Part shown: positions 1-44,738 of the stretch, one piece after another | Layout of the letters: each line of letters opens with the position of its first letter | Numbering within the stretch: position 1 is the first letter of the stretch | DNA from: Devosia sediminis | Lineage (GTDB): Bacteria > Pseudomonadota > Alphaproteobacteria > Rhizobiales > Devosiaceae | Length of the DNA: 64,000 bases | Direction: 5' to 3' | NCBI RefSeq assembly: GCF_016411825.1 | Contig: NZ_JAEKMH010000001.1 | Span: forward strand, 124,001 to 188,000 | Made by a program: the position numbers and the translations under genes | Notes under the pieces: generated by a model | What the model was told of the DNA's origin: nothing | Databases searched by the model: none | What the model saw: only the letters and a program-made list of their open reading frames with translations

Positions 1-381
1 GCTTTTCTCGATATTGAAATTGTAGTCATAACCGAGGGCGAGACGGGCGGCGGAGCTGGTGGAGGTGATGTCGTCGGCCACGGCATGCCAACGCAACACC
101 TCGGCGGTGATTGCCGGATCGTCCGGGAACCACAGGCCCGAGGTGTCATATTTTTTCGCGAGGTAAGCGAGGATGGCGCCAGAGTCCGAGAGGACCAGGT
201 CGTCATCCTTCAGCACCGGCAATTGCCCGAACGGGTTCAGCCTGAGGAACCAGTCGGCCTTGTGCTGGCGGCCGGGAAAGAAATCCACCGGCACGATGTC
301 ATAGGGCAGGTTGAGGATGCTCATCAGCAGTCGCAGCTTGTAGCAATTGCCGGAGAGCTCGAAGTCGTAAAGGGTGATCAT
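1..381 (-). CDS. Glutathione S-transferase family protein (3' end off the window)
   Basis: The first 127 residues of a thioredoxin-fold GST are visible; the C-terminal helical domain lies beyond base 1. The protein opens MITLYDFELSGNCYKLRLLM, the beta-alpha-beta start of a GST. It then has NPFGQLPVL, with the cis-proline loop that positions glutathione, and DSGAILAYLA, whose Asp-Ser contact the gamma-glutamyl group. The ATG at 379-381 is the only sensible start. It is the third gene in the same direction after a Rieske-less oxygenase and a Rieske-reductase fusion. In the caffeine N-demethylase system of Pseudomonas a GST-like protein (NdmE) stabilises such an oxygenase/reductase pair, so this GST may be a structural partner rather than a detoxification enzyme. 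That role is inference; an ordinary GST is the default alternative. Confidence 0.85.
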   Translation of the reverse strand, partial: MITLYDFELSGNCYKLRLLMSILNLPYDIVPVDFFPGRQHKADWFLRLNPFGQLPVLKDDDLVLSDSGAILAYLAKKYDTSGLWFPDDPAITAEVLRWHAVADDITSTSSAARLALGYDYNFNIEKS

Positions 382-405
382 GGGGTCACCAGATTGCCGT
401 TTGCC

Positions 406-491
406 GTCATTGCCCGGCTCGACCGGGCAATCCATGCCGCAAACGCGGAATGCGAGGAGAGATGGATCACCCGGTCAAGCCGGGTGATGAC
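406..491. repeat. Two-armed palindromic intergenic repeat
   Basis: Two imperfect palindromes, one centred on GCCCGGCTCGACCGGGC and one on CACCCGGTCAAGCCGGGTG, face each other with GTCAT and ATGAC at the outer ends. It fills the gap between the GST and the reductase gene. The layout resembles the mosaic REP/RPE elements of Rhizobiales. Nothing else is seen in 382-670 apart from the second repeat at 549-616. Confidence 0.7.
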
Positions 492-548
492 GAAGGAGGG
501 GATGGGAAGGGTGATTGCTCGAAGACCTAGGCTTCTGACCGGCACGGC

Positions 549-616
549 GTCATCCCCGCGAAAGCGGGGACCTCTGTCTGCGGACCAACAGGGGTTCCCG
601 CTTTCGCGGGAATGAC
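549..616. repeat. REP-like palindrome pair, family A copy 1
   Basis: The left arm GTCATCCCCGCGAAAGCGGG and the right arm CCCGCTTTCGCGGGAATGAC are inverted copies separated by a short variable centre. The same element recurs at 3611, 17206, 24649, 36599 and 44670, always between genes. Each arm is itself a hairpin (CCCGCGAAAGCGGG), so transcripts could fold into a double stem. Confidence 0.85.
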
Positions 617-670
617 CCGGTGGGTTTGAACGGTCCCGGATGACGGCTGCGCCAAAAATCTGCCGCACCA

Positions 671-2380
671 TCATATATCCAGCACCAGTCGATCCGACTT
701 CGCGCGGCTGACGCAGGTCATCATGCAGGTGTTGGAGGCCTTCTCGGTCTTGTTGAGATAGACGTCCTGGTGGTCGACCTCCCCTTCCATGACCGTAGTG
801 AGACAAGTGCCGCAGGCGCCCTGTTCGCAGGATGAGGGGACGGTTAGGCCGGCCTCGCGCATGGTTTCGAGAATGGTCTTTCCGGCCGGCACATGCAGGG
901 TCATGGCCGAGCGCGCCAGTTCCACGTCGAAGGCGCTCGATGAGTCGATGACCTTGTCGTTCTGGAAGTATTCGAAATGCACGGCCTCGTCGGGCCAGCC
1001 CAGGTCCGCGGCCACCTGCTGCACCATTTCGAGCATGGCGCCGGGGCCGCAGATATAGACGTGGTTGGCGAACTGATACGGCCCCATCACTGCGGCCACC
1101 TTGGCGCGGATGGCGTCGCGGGCTAGGCCGGCATGCCGCTCGACATGGCCATGGAGCACACCCAGTTCGCTCGAAAAGGCGGCGCTTTCATCGTTGCGGG
1201 TAAAGTAGTGCAGCTCGTAGGGAAGGCTAGACTTGTCTAGGAAACGCGCCATCGACAGTAGCGGGGTGATGCCGATGCCGCCGGCAATCAGCACGGTGCG
1301 GGTGGCGTCGCGCCTGAGCGGGAAATTGTTGCGCGGCTCGGAAATCTGCAGGAGGTCACCCTCCCGCACCGTCTCGACCAATACTTTCGATCCGCCCTTG
1401 GATGCGCTCTCGGCCTTGACGCCGATGACGTAGCGCGAGAGGTCGCCGGGGCCATTGGTCAGCGAATATTGCCGCACGAGGCCATTGGGCAGGTGCACGT
1501 CGATATGGGCGCCAGGCTGGAAAGTTGGCAGGTGCTTGCCGTCGCGATCGGCCAGTTCGAAGCCGATGACGCCATCTGCCGACTGCCATTTGCGCTTCAC
1601 CACGACCGTCAGGGTATTGCCGCGCGGCACCGCAATGTCGGGCATGGTGGAAAGGTCCGCCGAGACCTTTTCGAATACCGGCTGCAGCGGTTCGGGCGCC
1701 GGCTTCCTGGCCGCGGCGCGTTCGAGCCGGTCCCGCAGCTTGGTCAGCAACTCGTTGTAGTGGCGAAGCGTCGCCAGCTCGTCGGCAGGCTTTTCGGGCA
1801 GGAGACCGCGGATGACCGCGCGACCCGCATCGACCGGCTGCACGAACCAGGTGACGCCACCGACGCGCACCACCAAGGCGGGCAGGAGGTCGGCCGGCTC
1901 GTCATCGGGCGCAAGCCGGGCGAGTCCGGCCACCACGTCCTCGGGTGTGGCATTGACCGGCATGGGCCGAAGCGCGAACCAGTCGTGTCCGTCCGAACCA
2001 GGGAAGGGTGCATAGGCCTGGTCGTCATTGGCGGCCGACCAGATGAGGCCAAAGGCCTCGCGAATGGGATATTTGCGGTTCTCAATACGGCGGGCCGGGG
2101 CATCCGCGGGGTGGGCGGGAATATAGGTGCAGCCTGCCGACTGGTTGGCATAGCGCCAGCCATGATACTGGCACTTGAGCTCCTGGCCCTCATTGATGCC
2201 TATGGAAAGCCGCACGCCACGGTGGAGGCACCGGTTCTCCCAGACGTTCACATTGCCATCGTCGGCGCGCCAGACGGCGAGCTCGCGGCCAAGAAGCTGG
2301 CCCTGGTAGACGTGGCGAAAGGGTAGGTCCTCGCTCGAGGCGATGGGATACCAATTGGGGTCGGAGAGACTGAGGGGCAT
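671..2380 (-). CDS. Rieske / flavin reductase / [2Fe-2S] ferredoxin fusion, NdmD-like
   Basis: Electron-transfer protein of 569 residues with three modules. An N-terminal Rieske domain has C51-x-H53 and C70-x2-H73. A ferredoxin-NADP reductase-type unit follows, with RQYSLTN as the flavin-binding motif and VLIAGGIGITPLL as the start of the NAD(P) domain. The C-terminus is a plant-type ferredoxin with C518, C523, C526 and C556. Ordinary class IA oxygenase reductases have only the last two modules. The extra Rieske domain matches NdmD of Pseudomonas putida CBB5, which supplies the Rieske centre to the Rieske-less oxygenase NdmC. The gene beside it (2602-3498) is just such a truncated oxygenase, so the two probably form one enzyme. 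Residues 110-240 are a linker of unclear fold. The physiological substrate is unknown. Confidence 0.85.
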   Translation of the reverse strand: MPLSLSDPNWYPIASSEDLPFRHVYQGQLLGRELAVWRADDGNVNVWENRCLHRGVRLSIGINEGQELKCQYHGWRYANQSAGCTYIPAHPADAPARRIENRKYPIREAFGLIWSAANDDQAYAPFPGSDGHDWFALRPMPVNATPEDVVAGLARLAPDDEPADLLPALVVRVGGVTWFVQPVDAGRAVIRGLLPEKPADELATLRHYNELLTKLRDRLERAAARKPAPEPLQPVFEKVSADLSTMPDIAVPRGNTLTVVVKRKWQSADGVIGFELADRDGKHLPTFQPGAHIDVHLPNGLVRQYSLTNGPGDLSRYVIGVKAESASKGGSKVLVETVREGDLLQISEPRNNFPLRRDATRTVLIAGGIGITPLLSMARFLDKSSLPYELHYFTRNDESAAFSSELGVLHGHVERHAGLARDAIRAKVAAVMGPYQFANHVYICGPGAMLEMVQQVAADLGWPDEAVHFEYFQNDKVIDSSSAFDVELARSAMTLHVPAGKTILETMREAGLTVPSSCEQGACGTCLTTVMEGEVDHQDVYLNKTEKASNTCMMTCVSRAKSDRLVLDI

Positions 2381-2455
2381 GGTTCATCCGAGGTTTGATC
2401 GCGCCACGATCAGCTTCGGCTCAATCGCAGTCCTGGCGTACGGGACTGGATCTGA

Positions 2456-2590
2456 CTCCCTCCCCTTGACGGGGAGGGTTGGGTGGGGTGTGCAACGGAC
2501 TCAGTGCCCGCCAATCCCCCACCCAGCTTCGCTACGGCCTAGCGGGCCTAGCTCCGCTACCCTCCCCGCAAGGGGGAGGGAGGGCGCCGG
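2456..2590. repeat. Family B repeat (CCCTCCCC/GGGGAGGG inverted units)
   Basis: Two inverted C-rich/G-rich units, CTCCCTCCCCTTGACGGGGA and CCCTCCCCGCAAGGGGGAGG, flank a stretch containing CCCCACCCAGCTTCGC. Similar units occur at about 10540, 17137, 17400, 25970 and 30060. Here the element sits between the oxygenase and reductase genes of one probable operon and accounts for most of the 221-base gap. Confidence 0.75.
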
Positions 2591-2601
2591 TGGGCGCCAA
2601 A

Positions 2602-3498
2602 CTAAGAGGCCTGCGGAATCACCCCATAGGTAATCCCCTTCTGGCTCAGCCAGCGGCGATAGGCGATGGCGCTCTTGTCGGCGCGGATCGGGGTTTCCGA
2701 GCGCGGGTCGAGCGGCAGTTTCTTGGGGTACTGGTTTTCGAGGATCGGCTTGTCCTGGCCGAAAATCGTCTGCTGAAAGCGCCGCAGATCGGTGATGGTG
2801 GATGTCGAGTCGATCATCGATTGCAGGAGATGGGCGCGGCAGCGTTCCTCGGTCATGGGCTGGAGGAAAATGCCGATGACGTCGCGGCGTGTCTCGTCCT
2901 CGGGGCAGGACTTGTAGAGCACCGAGCAGAACGGATGCGGTACGCGGTAGACATATTCCACTTCCATCGCGCCGACGGCCGACTTGGCGGCCATGGGCTG
3001 GATGAAGCGGCATTTTGTGGCCAGAACTTCGTCGCGCTCTTCCGAAACCTCGACGTCGTATTCCTTGACCTCGGTATGCGGCTCGGACCCCAGAATGTCA
3101 GTATGGACATAGGGGAAATGACCCATGTCGAGGAAGTTTTCCACCGCCCGGGGCGCCGAGACGTGGATGCCGATGGAGCCGCAACTCATGTTGACGCGGT
3201 CGGGCTCGGCGAATTCGGGGATCGGGAACAGCTCGGCATCGGGCGTGCCGAGGCAGGTCCAGGTATAGCCATAGGCGGTGCGCACCGGCAGGCGCTCGAG
3301 CACGGAATCGGCGTCGATCTCGTCCCCGTTTTCCTCGTCCGTGCGCAGCCACACGACGGGCTCGCCATCGCTGCCACGGGTCAGCGCCAGGCGTGTATCG
3401 AGCAGCAGCGTGGTTTCGACGAGGCCGATAGGCAATTCATCGGTGGCAGCGACCACGTGCCAGAGGTTGCGCGTGATCGGATCGGGAGCTTGGGGCAT
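2602..3498 (-). CDS. Rieske-less non-haem iron oxygenase alpha subunit, NdmC-like
   Basis: A 298-residue protein that aligns by eye with the catalytic half of Rieske oxygenases. It has NLWHVVAATDELP, the usual N-terminal entry of the family, then jumps to YGYTWTCLG, the strand that normally closes the Rieske domain. No C-x-H...C-x2-H motif lies between. The mononuclear iron motif is intact: D124-x2-H127-x4-H132 in NFLDMGHFPYVHTDILG. Loss of the Rieske domain is exact and leaves an open frame, so it looks evolved rather than a broken gene. NdmC of P. putida CBB5 has the same build and depends on NdmD for its Rieske centre. It is first in a minus-strand run with the Rieske-reductase and a GST. 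Known NdmC removes the N7 methyl of 7-methylxanthine; that substrate should not be assumed here. Confidence 0.8.
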   Translation of the reverse strand: MPQAPDPITRNLWHVVAATDELPIGLVETTLLLDTRLALTRGSDGEPVVWLRTDEENGDEIDADSVLERLPVRTAYGYTWTCLGTPDAELFPIPEFAEPDRVNMSCGSIGIHVSAPRAVENFLDMGHFPYVHTDILGSEPHTEVKEYDVEVSEERDEVLATKCRFIQPMAAKSAVGAMEVEYVYRVPHPFCSVLYKSCPEDETRRDVIGIFLQPMTEERCRAHLLQSMIDSTSTITDLRRFQQTIFGQDKPILENQYPKKLPLDPRSETPIRADKSAIAYRRWLSQKGITYGVIPQAS

Positions 3499-3610
3499 GG
3501 GGCAGTCTCAACTTTGTCACATGAGCATAAACCCATGGGCGAGGTGTGCCAGCATAAAGTTGCGGACGGGCCATGCGTTGGGGGCATGGGGCTGTTATAC
3601 CCTCTGCAAC

Positions 3611-3685
3611 GTCATCCCCGCGAAAGCGGGGACCTCCGTTTGCGGACCCTGCGGCAACAGGGGTTCCCGCTTTCGCGGGAATGAC
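3611..3685. repeat. REP-like palindrome pair, family A copy 2
   Basis: GTCATCCCCGCGAAAGCGGG is paired with CCCGCTTTCGCGGGAATGAC, in the divergent gap between the oxygenase and Ldh2-type genes. It ends 22 bases before the plus-strand start codon, so any promoter for that gene must lie within or upstream of the repeat. Confidence 0.85.
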
Positions 3686-3707
3686 GCCGGGGAGGAAAGA
3701 GTTACAA

Positions 3708-4742
3708 ATGGCTATCGATAACGCTGCACGCTTCGACGCAGACCTGTTGCGACAGCGCGTCGACGAGCGCCTCGCCGAGGCCGGCGCCAGTGCCGAGTCC
3801 CGGCAGGCGGCCGTCAAGGCGATGCTCCATGCCTCGCTGGTTGGCGTTGACAGCCATGGCGTGCGGCTGGTCGCGCATTATTGCCGCATGCTGGGTGGTG
3901 GCCGCCTCAACAAGAATCCGCAACTGACCGTGGAAAAACGCGGCGCCGGTAGCGCCACCGTCCATGGCGACGACGGGCTCGGCCACTATGCGGCCTACAA
4001 GGCGGTCGAAGTGGGCATGGAGCTGGCCCGCGAGGCCGGGGTCGGTGCGGTCGGAGTCAAGCATTCCTCGCATCTGGGTGCGGCCGGCGCCTATGCGCTG
4101 GCAGGGGCCGAAGAGGGGTTTGTCACCTTTGCCACCACCAATACCGATTCGGTCGTGGCGCTATTCGATGGCGCGCAAAAATTCCACGGCACCAATCCGC
4201 TGGCCTTTGCCGCGCCGGTGCCTGGGCAAAGACCGTGGCTGCTCGACATGGCGACGAGCTCCATACCGCTCAACCGGGTGATGCTTCATCGCTCGCTCGA
4301 CAAAGCCCTGCCCGAAGGCGTGGCGGCGACATCGGCGGGCGAACCCACGACCGATCCGCATGAGGCCGAGATGCTGTTGCCCCTGGGCGGGGTCGACTAT
4401 GGCTACAAGGGCGCCGCGCTGGCTGGCGTCGCGACGCTGTTTTCGGCGCTGCTCAACGGTACCACGCTGGATGCCGATTTCCTGCCCATGTATGGCGGCG
4501 ACGATATTTCGACGCCCCGCAATATGGGCCATTTCGTGCTGGTCATCGATCCGGACAAGTTCGCCGGCCGCGCCCTGTTCGGGGCGGCAATGGCGCAGTA
4601 TCTGGCGAGCCTGCGCGGCTCGGCGGTGCGCGAGGGCGGCACGGTGATGGCGCCGGGCGATCGCGAATGGGCGGAGATGGACGCCCGCCGGGCGCGGGGC
4701 ATTCCCGTCGATCCGGATACGGTCAGGTTTCTGGGGCTTTGA
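3708..4742 (+). CDS. Ldh2 family NAD(P)-dependent malate/lactate/ureidoglycolate-type dehydrogenase
   Basis: A 344-residue oxidoreductase of the Ldh2/DpkA/AllD fold, distinct from classical Rossmann lactate dehydrogenases. Visible signatures are VDSHGVRLV near the N-terminus, KHSSHLGAAGAYA with the catalytic histidine, HGTNPLAFAAP and DYGYKGAALA. The ATG at 3708 follows AGGAAAG at a good distance; translation further upstream would run through the repeat. Members oxidise 2-hydroxyacids (malate, sulfolactate, ureidoglycolate) or reduce cyclic imino acids, and motifs alone do not separate these. Ureidoglycolate dehydrogenase, a purine-catabolic member, would fit the NdmC/NdmD-like neighbours, but this is only suggestive. 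The 3' end overlaps the convergent minus-strand gene by 20 bases. Confidence 0.85.
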   Translation: MAIDNAARFDADLLRQRVDERLAEAGASAESRQAAVKAMLHASLVGVDSHGVRLVAHYCRMLGGGRLNKNPQLTVEKRGAGSATVHGDDGLGHYAAYKAVEVGMELAREAGVGAVGVKHSSHLGAAGAYALAGAEEGFVTFATTNTDSVVALFDGAQKFHGTNPLAFAAPVPGQRPWLLDMATSSIPLNRVMLHRSLDKALPEGVAATSAGEPTTDPHEAEMLLPLGGVDYGYKGAALAGVATLFSALLNGTTLDADFLPMYGGDDISTPRNMGHFVLVIDPDKFAGRALFGAAMAQYLASLRGSAVREGGTVMAPGDREWAEMDARRARGIPVDPDTVRFLGL

Positions 4743-17136: not shown

Positions 17137-17505
17137 GCCTCACCCTTGATCCCTCCCCACGAGGGGGAGAGGACGGTGCCCGCTAATCTGGCCCAGACCC
17201 ACAGTGTCATTCCCGCGAAAGCGGGAACCCCTGTTTGCTGCGACATCCCGAAACGGAGGTTCCCGCCTTCGCGGGAATGACACAGTGAAGGCTCTCCGAC
17301 AGCGCCGTCCTCGGGCTTGACCCGAGGACCTGCTTCCACGTCTGCGCTGTTTTGAGTGGCCCTCGCGTCAGCCCCAGGGTGATGCGTGGGTGTGGCGAAG
17401 CCCCCACCCTTGATCCCTCCCCACAAGGGGGAGGGAGACGATGAACACTATCGTCGCAACCTGCGCCTCCCTCCCCTTGATGGGGAGGGAACGAGGGTGG
17501 GGTGG
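17137..17505. repeat. Composite repeat region downstream of tamB
   Basis: The 412-base convergent gap between tamB and yejA holds no gene. It contains family B units near 17137-17170 (TTGATCCCTCCCCACGAGGG) and 17398-17505 (two units, one pointing each way), a family A copy at 17206-17281, and a short palindrome TCCTCGGGCTTGACCCGAGG near 17310. The symmetry suggests that it also ends transcription from both sides. Confidence 0.7.
17206..17281. repeat. REP-like palindrome pair, family A copy 3
   Basis: The left arm GTCATTCCCGCGAAAGCGGG and the right arm CCCGCCTTCGCGGGAATGAC surround a centre with CGAAACGGAGG. It lies within the tamB-yejA convergent gap. Confidence 0.85.
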
Positions 17506-24648: not shown

Positions 24649-24720
24649 GTCACCCCCGCGCAGGCGGGGGCCTCTGTTTGGAACGGCAGAAACAGGGGTT
24701 CCCGCTTTCGCGGGAATGAC
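24649..24720. repeat. REP-like palindrome pair, family A copy 4
   Basis: A diverged left arm GTCACCCCCGCGCAGGCGGG is paired with a canonical right arm CCCGCTTTCGCGGGAATGAC, 31 bases before the zapE start. A fragment CCTCGGGCTTGACCCGGGGC lies just upstream at 24601-24620. The 295-base gap otherwise holds only the omp19 terminator. Confidence 0.8.
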
Positions 24721-36598: not shown

Positions 36599-36675
36599 GT
36601 TATTCCCGCGAAAGCGGGAACCCCTGTTTCCCTTGCAGCGTCGCGAACCGAGGTTCCCGCTTTCGCGGGAATGAC
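36599..36675. repeat. REP-like palindrome pair, family A copy 5
   Basis: GTTATTCCCGCGAAAGCGGG and CCCGCTTTCGCGGGAATGAC flank a centre with TCGCGAACCGAGG. It occupies the middle of the 290-base gap before the LysE-type gene; nothing else is seen there. Confidence 0.85.
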
Positions 36676-44669: not shown

Positions 44670-44738
44670 GTCATCCTCGCGAAAGCGGGGACCTCTGTTC
44701 ACGGTCAAAACAGAGGTTCCCGCCTTCGCGGGAATGAC
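44670..44738. repeat. REP-like palindrome pair, family A copy 6
   Basis: GTCATCCTCGCGAAAGCGGG is paired with CCCGCCTTCGCGGGAATGAC in the convergent gap after kdgF. It marks the boundary between the uronate operon and the following minus-strand gene. Confidence 0.85.

Follow-up and report, generated by a model that had tools for sequence, protein, structure and literature searches.

A Rieske-less oxygenase, a Rieske-bearing reductase and a GST-like neighbour in Devosia sediminis: a further member of the NdmCDE-like oxygenases

The 7-methylxanthine N7-demethylase of Pseudomonas putida CBB5 is encoded by neighbouring genes for a Rieske-less oxygenase (NdmC), a Rieske-flavin-ferredoxin reductase (NdmD) and a glutathione S-transferase (GST)-like protein (NdmE). 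The NdmCDE complex is given as 3:3:3 with a mass of 360 kDa in one paper (PMC10380055), and its GST as structural in another (PMC13237722), which cites GenBank entry KC778191 for ndmE. For NdmCDE, the literature ties the solubility and activity of the complex to the GST. A review of these systems (PMC4408171) has frmA/frmB flanking the ndm genes and mentions clusters of ndmCDE homologues, most of them from Sinorhizobium and Mesorhizobium, whose function is unknown. The subject of this report is an operon of the same layout at one end of a 64-kb stretch of Devosia sediminis DNA (the window; G000:C8:124001-188000, within a 4.09-Mb genome listed as 99.47% complete), which probably belongs to the same family as the rhizobial clusters. 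An earlier note on this DNA had read the operon as an NdmC/D/E-like three-part oxygenase, and all three parts, the Rieske-less oxygenase (OX), the Rieske-bearing reductase (RED) and a dedicated GST-like neighbour (GST), have been found. Since the layout itself is already known, the window operon is a further member. (L numbers denote fetched loci, L001 being the window's own.) The features of the operon are as follows.

2602..3498, minus strand: OX, a Rieske-less, NdmC-like oxygenase of 298 amino acids (Pfam VanA_C; AlphaFold2 model resembling SxtT).
3274..3498, minus strand: OX residues 1-75, a Rieske-fold stump without cluster ligands (profile matches).
3103..3129, minus strand: D124-x2-H127-x4-H132 of OX, a probable bridging Asp and two probable iron ligands (invariance in alignment A1).
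2752..2754, minus strand: D249 of OX, the probable third iron ligand (invariance in alignment A1).
671..2380, minus strand: RED, an NdmD-like Rieske-FMN-NAD-ferredoxin reductase of 569 amino acids (Pfam, phmmer, motifs).
2108..2356, minus strand: the Rieske domain of RED, with ligands C51, H53, C70 and H73 (PF00355 at E 9e-19, residues 9-91; motif).
1694..2029, minus strand: RED residues 118-229, a probable shrunken oxygenase catalytic domain without iron motif (AlphaFold2, structural and profile alignment).
674..1615, minus strand: RED residues 256-569, an FMN/NAD/plant-type ferredoxin reductase (phmmer to 2pia).
1..381, minus strand: GST, NdmE-like and cut by the window edge (Pfam GST_N and GST_C; conserved neighbour).

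SxtT, GxtA and NdmA, as they stand in the Protein Data Bank (PDB), carry both redox centres on one polypeptide. In contrast, OX and RED, whose modelled folds (the latter over residues 2-229) are like theirs, divide the two centres between them: D-x2-H-x4-H is found in OX and not in RED, and the Rieske ligand motif in RED and not in OX. The Pfam search of OX yields VanA_C (E 3.4e-22), KshA_C weakly and under its cut-off, and no Rieske family. There is no C-x-H...C-x2-H in OX, its cysteines being solely at 82, 106, 163, 191, 198 and 220, and for want of this ligand motif the idea of an oxygenase with a diverged yet complete Rieske domain has been dropped. D124, H127, H132 and D249 are invariant in all 42 oxygenase rows of alignment A1. 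Going by the oxygenase family, D124 is probably the bridging Asp, H127 and H132 are probably iron ligands, and D249 is probably the third ligand. The best PDB sequence matches of OX are SxtT (E 1.9e-26) and SxtDIOX (9e-26), with NdmA following at 9.3e-9, and its AlphaFold2 model (built on an alignment of 39 rows; predicted local distance difference test, pLDDT, 83.8) superposes on nearly the whole SxtT chain (Z 27.0, root-mean-square deviation, rmsd, 2.8, 276 residues).

RED adds to its N-terminal Rieske domain a Fer2 domain at residues 488-561 (Pfam), with the Cys4 ferredoxin-type motif present, and its C-terminal 309 residues (261-569) match phthalate dioxygenase reductase (PDR; 2pia) at E 1.1e-67 in phmmer. 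The 2PIA protein, a 321-residue chain matched from residue 13, has neither a Rieske nor an oxygenase-like part, unlike RED. Thus the earlier note's description of an oxygenase at 2602-3498 that keeps the iron site and lacks the Rieske motif, beside a reductase with N-terminal Rieske, flavin and ferredoxin modules, stands. In three other loci (L006:10078-11786, L038:9918-11608 and L044:10076-11841) the RED frame is interrupted, perhaps by a fault of assembly, perhaps by true decay.

Genome contigs, when scanned, yielded 256 relatives of OX, and locus counts over 80 refer to the best 80 of these (Devosia 35, Mesorhizobium 15, Sinorhizobium 2; 45 loci are not assigned to Devosia). OX, the Rieske part, the reductase part and GST lie on one strand and in that order in 76 of the 80, with median gaps of 52 and 14 bases; the four exceptions (L010, L019, L025 and L057) end at contig edges, and the loci with an interrupted RED frame (L006, L038 and L044) are among the 76. 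The window has the same-strand order OX, RED, GST (minus strand), so that GST does follow the pair, as had been said of it, and it is conserved there in related genomes. The whole GST gene encodes 214 amino acids (L001:15738-16382, which is G000:C8:123737-124381) and runs from window position 381 down past base 1; alignment of relatives indicates that the listed open reading frame, which starts at 435, probably includes 18 codons ahead of the true start.

The supposition that this is a rare enzyme in an alphaproteobacterium has not survived: among 75 genomes from the genus, OX occurs in 59 at E<=1e-40 (56/68 among those of good quality), besides the 256 relatives in contigs. An even draw of the order has 50 of 297 genomes matching OX at E<=1e-30, at least 2 of them by unsplit oxygenases, and a search of the phylum with an oxygenase of the free-Rieske type (described below) finds matches, counted whether split or unsplit, in 23 of 398 genomes at E<=1e-25. 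A second Rieske-less oxygenase (OX2) is found in 34 of the 80 loci and in none of the 35 from Devosia. OX2 (L064:8086-8952 and equivalents; ~45-55% to OX) lies just upstream of OX and would have to share the single RED; a third Rieske-less oxygenase lies further off in L060, L066 and L068. NCBIfam, at E<=1e-5, assigns no family to OX or to the OX2 of L064. The PF00355 search of the window genome gives three matches, RED and two others. Reading their motifs by eye, we take the other two to be a cytochrome bc1 subunit and a NirD-type ferredoxin. Since both look like Rieske proteins other than oxygenases, this search reveals no NdmA/NdmB-like oxygenase in the genome, which extends to the genome the absence of ndmA/ndmB already remarked on in the window and sets it apart from the caffeine cluster of CBB5 (ndmABCDE).

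Relatives occur in three states, as a wider sample makes clear (16 regions picked for spread from the 50 matching order-wide genomes, with L085-L087 added from plasmid matches). The free-Rieske form, in 13 of the 16 regions and in L086 and L087 (n=15), consists of a free-standing Rieske protein (189-240 amino acids as called, with the ligand motif present and the iron motif absent), a Rieske-less oxygenase and, in all 15 loci, a GST. The oxygenase is divergent in L093 and L095, and 7 kb and 3 kb off in L100 and L104, respectively. A PDR-type reductase is near three of these 15 loci (L087, L098 and L101), the one in L101 possibly belonging to an adjoining unsplit oxygenase. The fused type is represented by L106 and L085. 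In the unsplit state are the 336-residue oxygenases of L107 and L108, beside BMP transporter genes; a Leptolyngbya (cyanobacterial) plasmid likewise has an unsplit Rieske oxygenase after a BMP transporter operon (L109:3995-4969). Searching with three GSTs (tblastn, E<=1e-6) finds no GST in the eight unsplit-oxygenase loci, L107-L114; the single-chain oxygenases in L054, L085 and L101 are left out of this count because each shares its locus, and hence its GST, with a split operon.

CBB5 NdmC is represented in our comparisons by the oxygenase of L085, from a Klebsiella plasmid, a choice guided by the review, in which a K. pneumoniae cluster figures among the closest; the strain being another one, this equivalence is an assumption. 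Among insertion sequences, L085:9593-23771 holds an OX-RED-GST set together with genes for a full-length oxygenase, a TIM-barrel protein, a 2-oxoglutarate oxygenase and a xanthine permease, and it looks like a methylxanthine cluster. Trees were made by a quick method on row subsets (62, 55 and 34 rows), with branch support as the Shimodaira-Hasegawa-like approximate likelihood ratio test (SH-aLRT). In the tree of catalytic parts (62 rows), a single branch divides all 52 Rieske-less oxygenases from the 10 that are unsplit (SH-aLRT 100), with subgroups for OX2 (16 rows, 98), the free-Rieske type (14 of 15 rows, 95) and OX1, which includes the window OX (17 rows, 55; 91 when L106 is added). The window OX is 44% identical to the L085 oxygenase and lies in a different subgroup. 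The Rieske part and GST of L085, unlike its oxygenase, cluster with the fused type. In the Rieske tree the 30 fused rows, among them L085, form one group and the 15 free rows another, each at 95, in an analysis of 109 columns that is weakly resolved and does not place the outgroup on one side of a branch; with long branches and few columns, the deeper branching order is unsure. In the GST tree, 29 operon-type GSTs are set apart (94) from five further GST_N_3 proteins encoded in the window genome, and 14 of the fused type, again with L085, cluster at 99. On this evidence the reading of GST as an ordinary detoxification gene has been dropped. So has a catalytic role: of residues 10 and 67, the glutathione-binding positions, the first is Ser in 32 of 38 rows and the second in only 14 of 38.

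How did the two centres come to be divided? The view stated for NdmCDE in the review (PMC4408171) is relocation, and the earlier note likewise had the Rieske domain moved from the oxygenase to its reductase: one oxygenase would have lost its Rieske domain to a reductase, with no second oxygenase subunit involved. That description proves inaccurate, since a stump of the Rieske fold remains in OX and the model of RED 2-229 is that of an oxygenase subunit. OX residues 9-50 are homologous to RED 6-47 (hhalign probability 97.5, pairwise E 7.5e-12); the N-terminal Rieske segment therefore exists twice. In profile comparison with ten unsplit oxygenases, OX 8-74 spans the greater part of their Rieske half, the ligand-bearing part being missing (E 1.1e-17). 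The AlphaFold2 model of RED 1-260 was built on an alignment of 28 rows; its pLDDT is 78.6, with low values for the cluster loops and the end of the model and block values of 93-98 across 131-230. Its residues 2-229 superpose on GxtA 3-291 (Z 18.1, rmsd 3.3 over 220 residues), on dicamba monooxygenase 2-309 (likewise Z 18.1) and on NdmA 8-300 (Z 16.9). The N-terminal part of RED thus models as an oxygenase subunit that is complete though shrunken, in which the Rieske cluster is live and the iron motif absent. Its middle region matches the catalytic domain of OX (probability 81, E 1.2e-5, 40 columns; 0.17-0.33 for control comparisons with reductase pieces and GST) and is homologous to the tail that follows the free Rieske proteins (E 7.4e-12).

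Relocation draws its support from the weakness of the sequence match between RED 118-235 and general oxygenase catalytic domains (probability 3, E 0.014). For the tail of the free Rieske proteins a match to oxygenases is all but absent (0.5), which also speaks against a second oxygenase subunit, and structure prediction may lean towards a familiar fold when a Rieske domain comes first. Duplication with reciprocal loss nevertheless fits better, because the Rieske segment is in both OX and RED and because RED 2-229 models as a whole subunit; the same tail after the free Rieske proteins also goes against relocation, which we regard as improbable. OX (dead Rieske, live iron) and RED 1-230 (live Rieske, dead iron) look like reciprocally decayed copies. 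A partial literature search, which may have missed an earlier description, turned up neither an NdmD described as holding an oxygenase-like remnant nor a form in which the Rieske protein stands free. One possible history, offered tentatively and at somewhat less than even odds, is that the split arose once: a single-chain oxygenase beside a purine-type BMP transporter would have duplicated, one copy keeping the iron site and the other the Rieske cluster as both decayed, and a GST would have been recruited as an obligate scaffold. The unfused form (free Rieske protein, oxygenase, GST and separate reductase) and the fused NdmD form would be two outcomes, and the family's real job would be the salvage of methylated purines from nucleic-acid turnover, with caffeine degradation as a side branch.

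As to function, OX, RED and GST probably make up a complex like NdmCDE that removes an N-methyl group from a purine, the likeliest substrate being of the 7-methylxanthine/7-methylguanine type, with xanthine or guanine and formaldehyde as products. Electrons would pass from NADH to FMN, the plant-type ferredoxin and the Rieske cluster, all in RED, and from there to the non-haem iron of OX. OX and RED would need each other because one keeps the iron site and the other the Rieske cluster. The step from RED to OX would cross a protein-protein interface by way of the conserved Asp124, much like the normal inter-subunit step of Rieske oxygenases, for which PMC12445004 gives a distance of ~12 A; the invariance of D124, H127, H132 and D249 fits such a path. 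GST would be a scaffold, not a catalyst.

The neighbour genes of relatives favour a methylated purine as the substrate. As with NdmCDE, many relatives of the window operon have formaldehyde genes next to them: GST is directly followed by a class III alcohol dehydrogenase in 18 of the 80 loci at E<=1e-10 (14 at >=200 bits; several loci are cut by contig ends), with TIGR02818 over its cut-off in L060 (584 against 544), FghA over its cut-off in L064 (462 against 282) and FghA-like matches in 6 of the 45 loci without a Devosia assignment. The operon has a BMP binding protein close by in 36 of those 45 and in 8 of the 15 free-Rieske loci, and an ABC permease is one conserved neighbour family. Deaminase-like matches occur in 7 of the 15 free-Rieske loci; the two of these that alone were scored against the 8-oxoguanine deaminase model are L087, over the cut-off (669 against 532), and L086, under it (369). 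In L085 xanthine permease is over its cut-off (515 against 414). In L032, whose OX is 81% identical to that of the window, the operon is divergent from a BMP transporter with a binding protein 83% identical to one in the window genome, and the latter transporter sits with xdhB (over cut-off), xdhC, guanine deaminase and a PuuE (allantoinase)/OHCU-decarboxylase fusion; xdhA was read by eye in the same purine cluster.

Several observations pull the other way. The loci with formaldehyde genes are mostly from related rhizobia and so are not independent. Beside the Devosia operons neither BMP nor AdhC is found (0/35 for each, unlike the 36 of 80 loci with a BMP transporter), nor was anything else related to purines or formaldehyde, and FrmA is unlinked to the operon in the window genome. 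XdhB and the purine-cluster transporter are each present in 72 of 75 genomes of the genus, and, both being near-universal, their co-occurrence with OX is uninformative. The nearest named models for the transporter (NCBIfam) are parts of a putative B6 ABC transporter, below cut-off. Finally, the NdmC stand-in of L085 joins the free-Rieske oxygenases and L098 (88), apart from the window OX.

The B6 models and the silence of the Devosia operon's own neighbourhood, where nothing fixes the substrate, are what suggests an N- or O-demethylase or hydroxylase of a non-purine nutrient instead (a vitamin B6-like compound, betaine, a pyrimidine or a plant alkaloid). We think this unlikely: the B6 models fall short of their cut-offs, the binding protein with 83% identity belongs to the purine cluster of the window genome, and relatives supply a deaminase over cut-off (L087) and a xanthine permease (L085). 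If the substrate is a purine or related heterocycle, its ring might be hydroxylated rather than demethylated, as by the molybdenum-independent xanthine hydroxylase HpxDE, with deaminases feeding urate catabolism. HpxD-annotated proteins do figure among the matches, at 28-31% identity over the catalytic part, and the deaminase-like genes of the free-Rieske loci, one of them over the 8-oxoguanine deaminase cut-off, would suit this scheme. Against it stand the formaldehyde-oxidation genes directly after GST in 18 of 80 loci; the window OX, unlike HpxDE, has no Rieske motif of its own, two annotated HpxD fall outside the split group in the tree, and XdhB is already in 72 of 75 genus genomes. We give ring hydroxylation little weight, and N-demethylation of a methylated purine remains our preferred interpretation.

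A few further features of the locus are recorded here, beginning with one in the gap between RED and GST.

543..622, no strand assigned: palindromic dispersed repeat (RED-GST gap).

This repeat has 11 matches with <=3 mismatches in the 64 kb, compared with 0 in 100 shuffles; copies are at window positions 549-616, 3611-3685, 17206-17281, 24698-24720, 36599-36675 and 44670-44738, with one pair between RED and GST and another beside OX. Rfam at gathering scores has 0 matches in the window, and a promoter/terminator scan of window positions 1-3800 gave nothing above chance. The divergent neighbour of OX (window 3573-4742) encodes a protein of the malate/lactate/ureidoglycolate-dehydrogenase type, under all listed cut-offs, and a similar family recurs in 22 loci.

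With these comparisons, what was a curiosity of a caffeine-eating Pseudomonas becomes one member of a broad, mainly alphaproteobacterial family. They also provide a concrete picture of a two-centre enzyme that would be divided over two proteins with its inter-subunit electron step retained, and they make two questions testable: why a GST should be required, and what role the many unassigned ndmCDE homologues play in rhizobia and Devosia.

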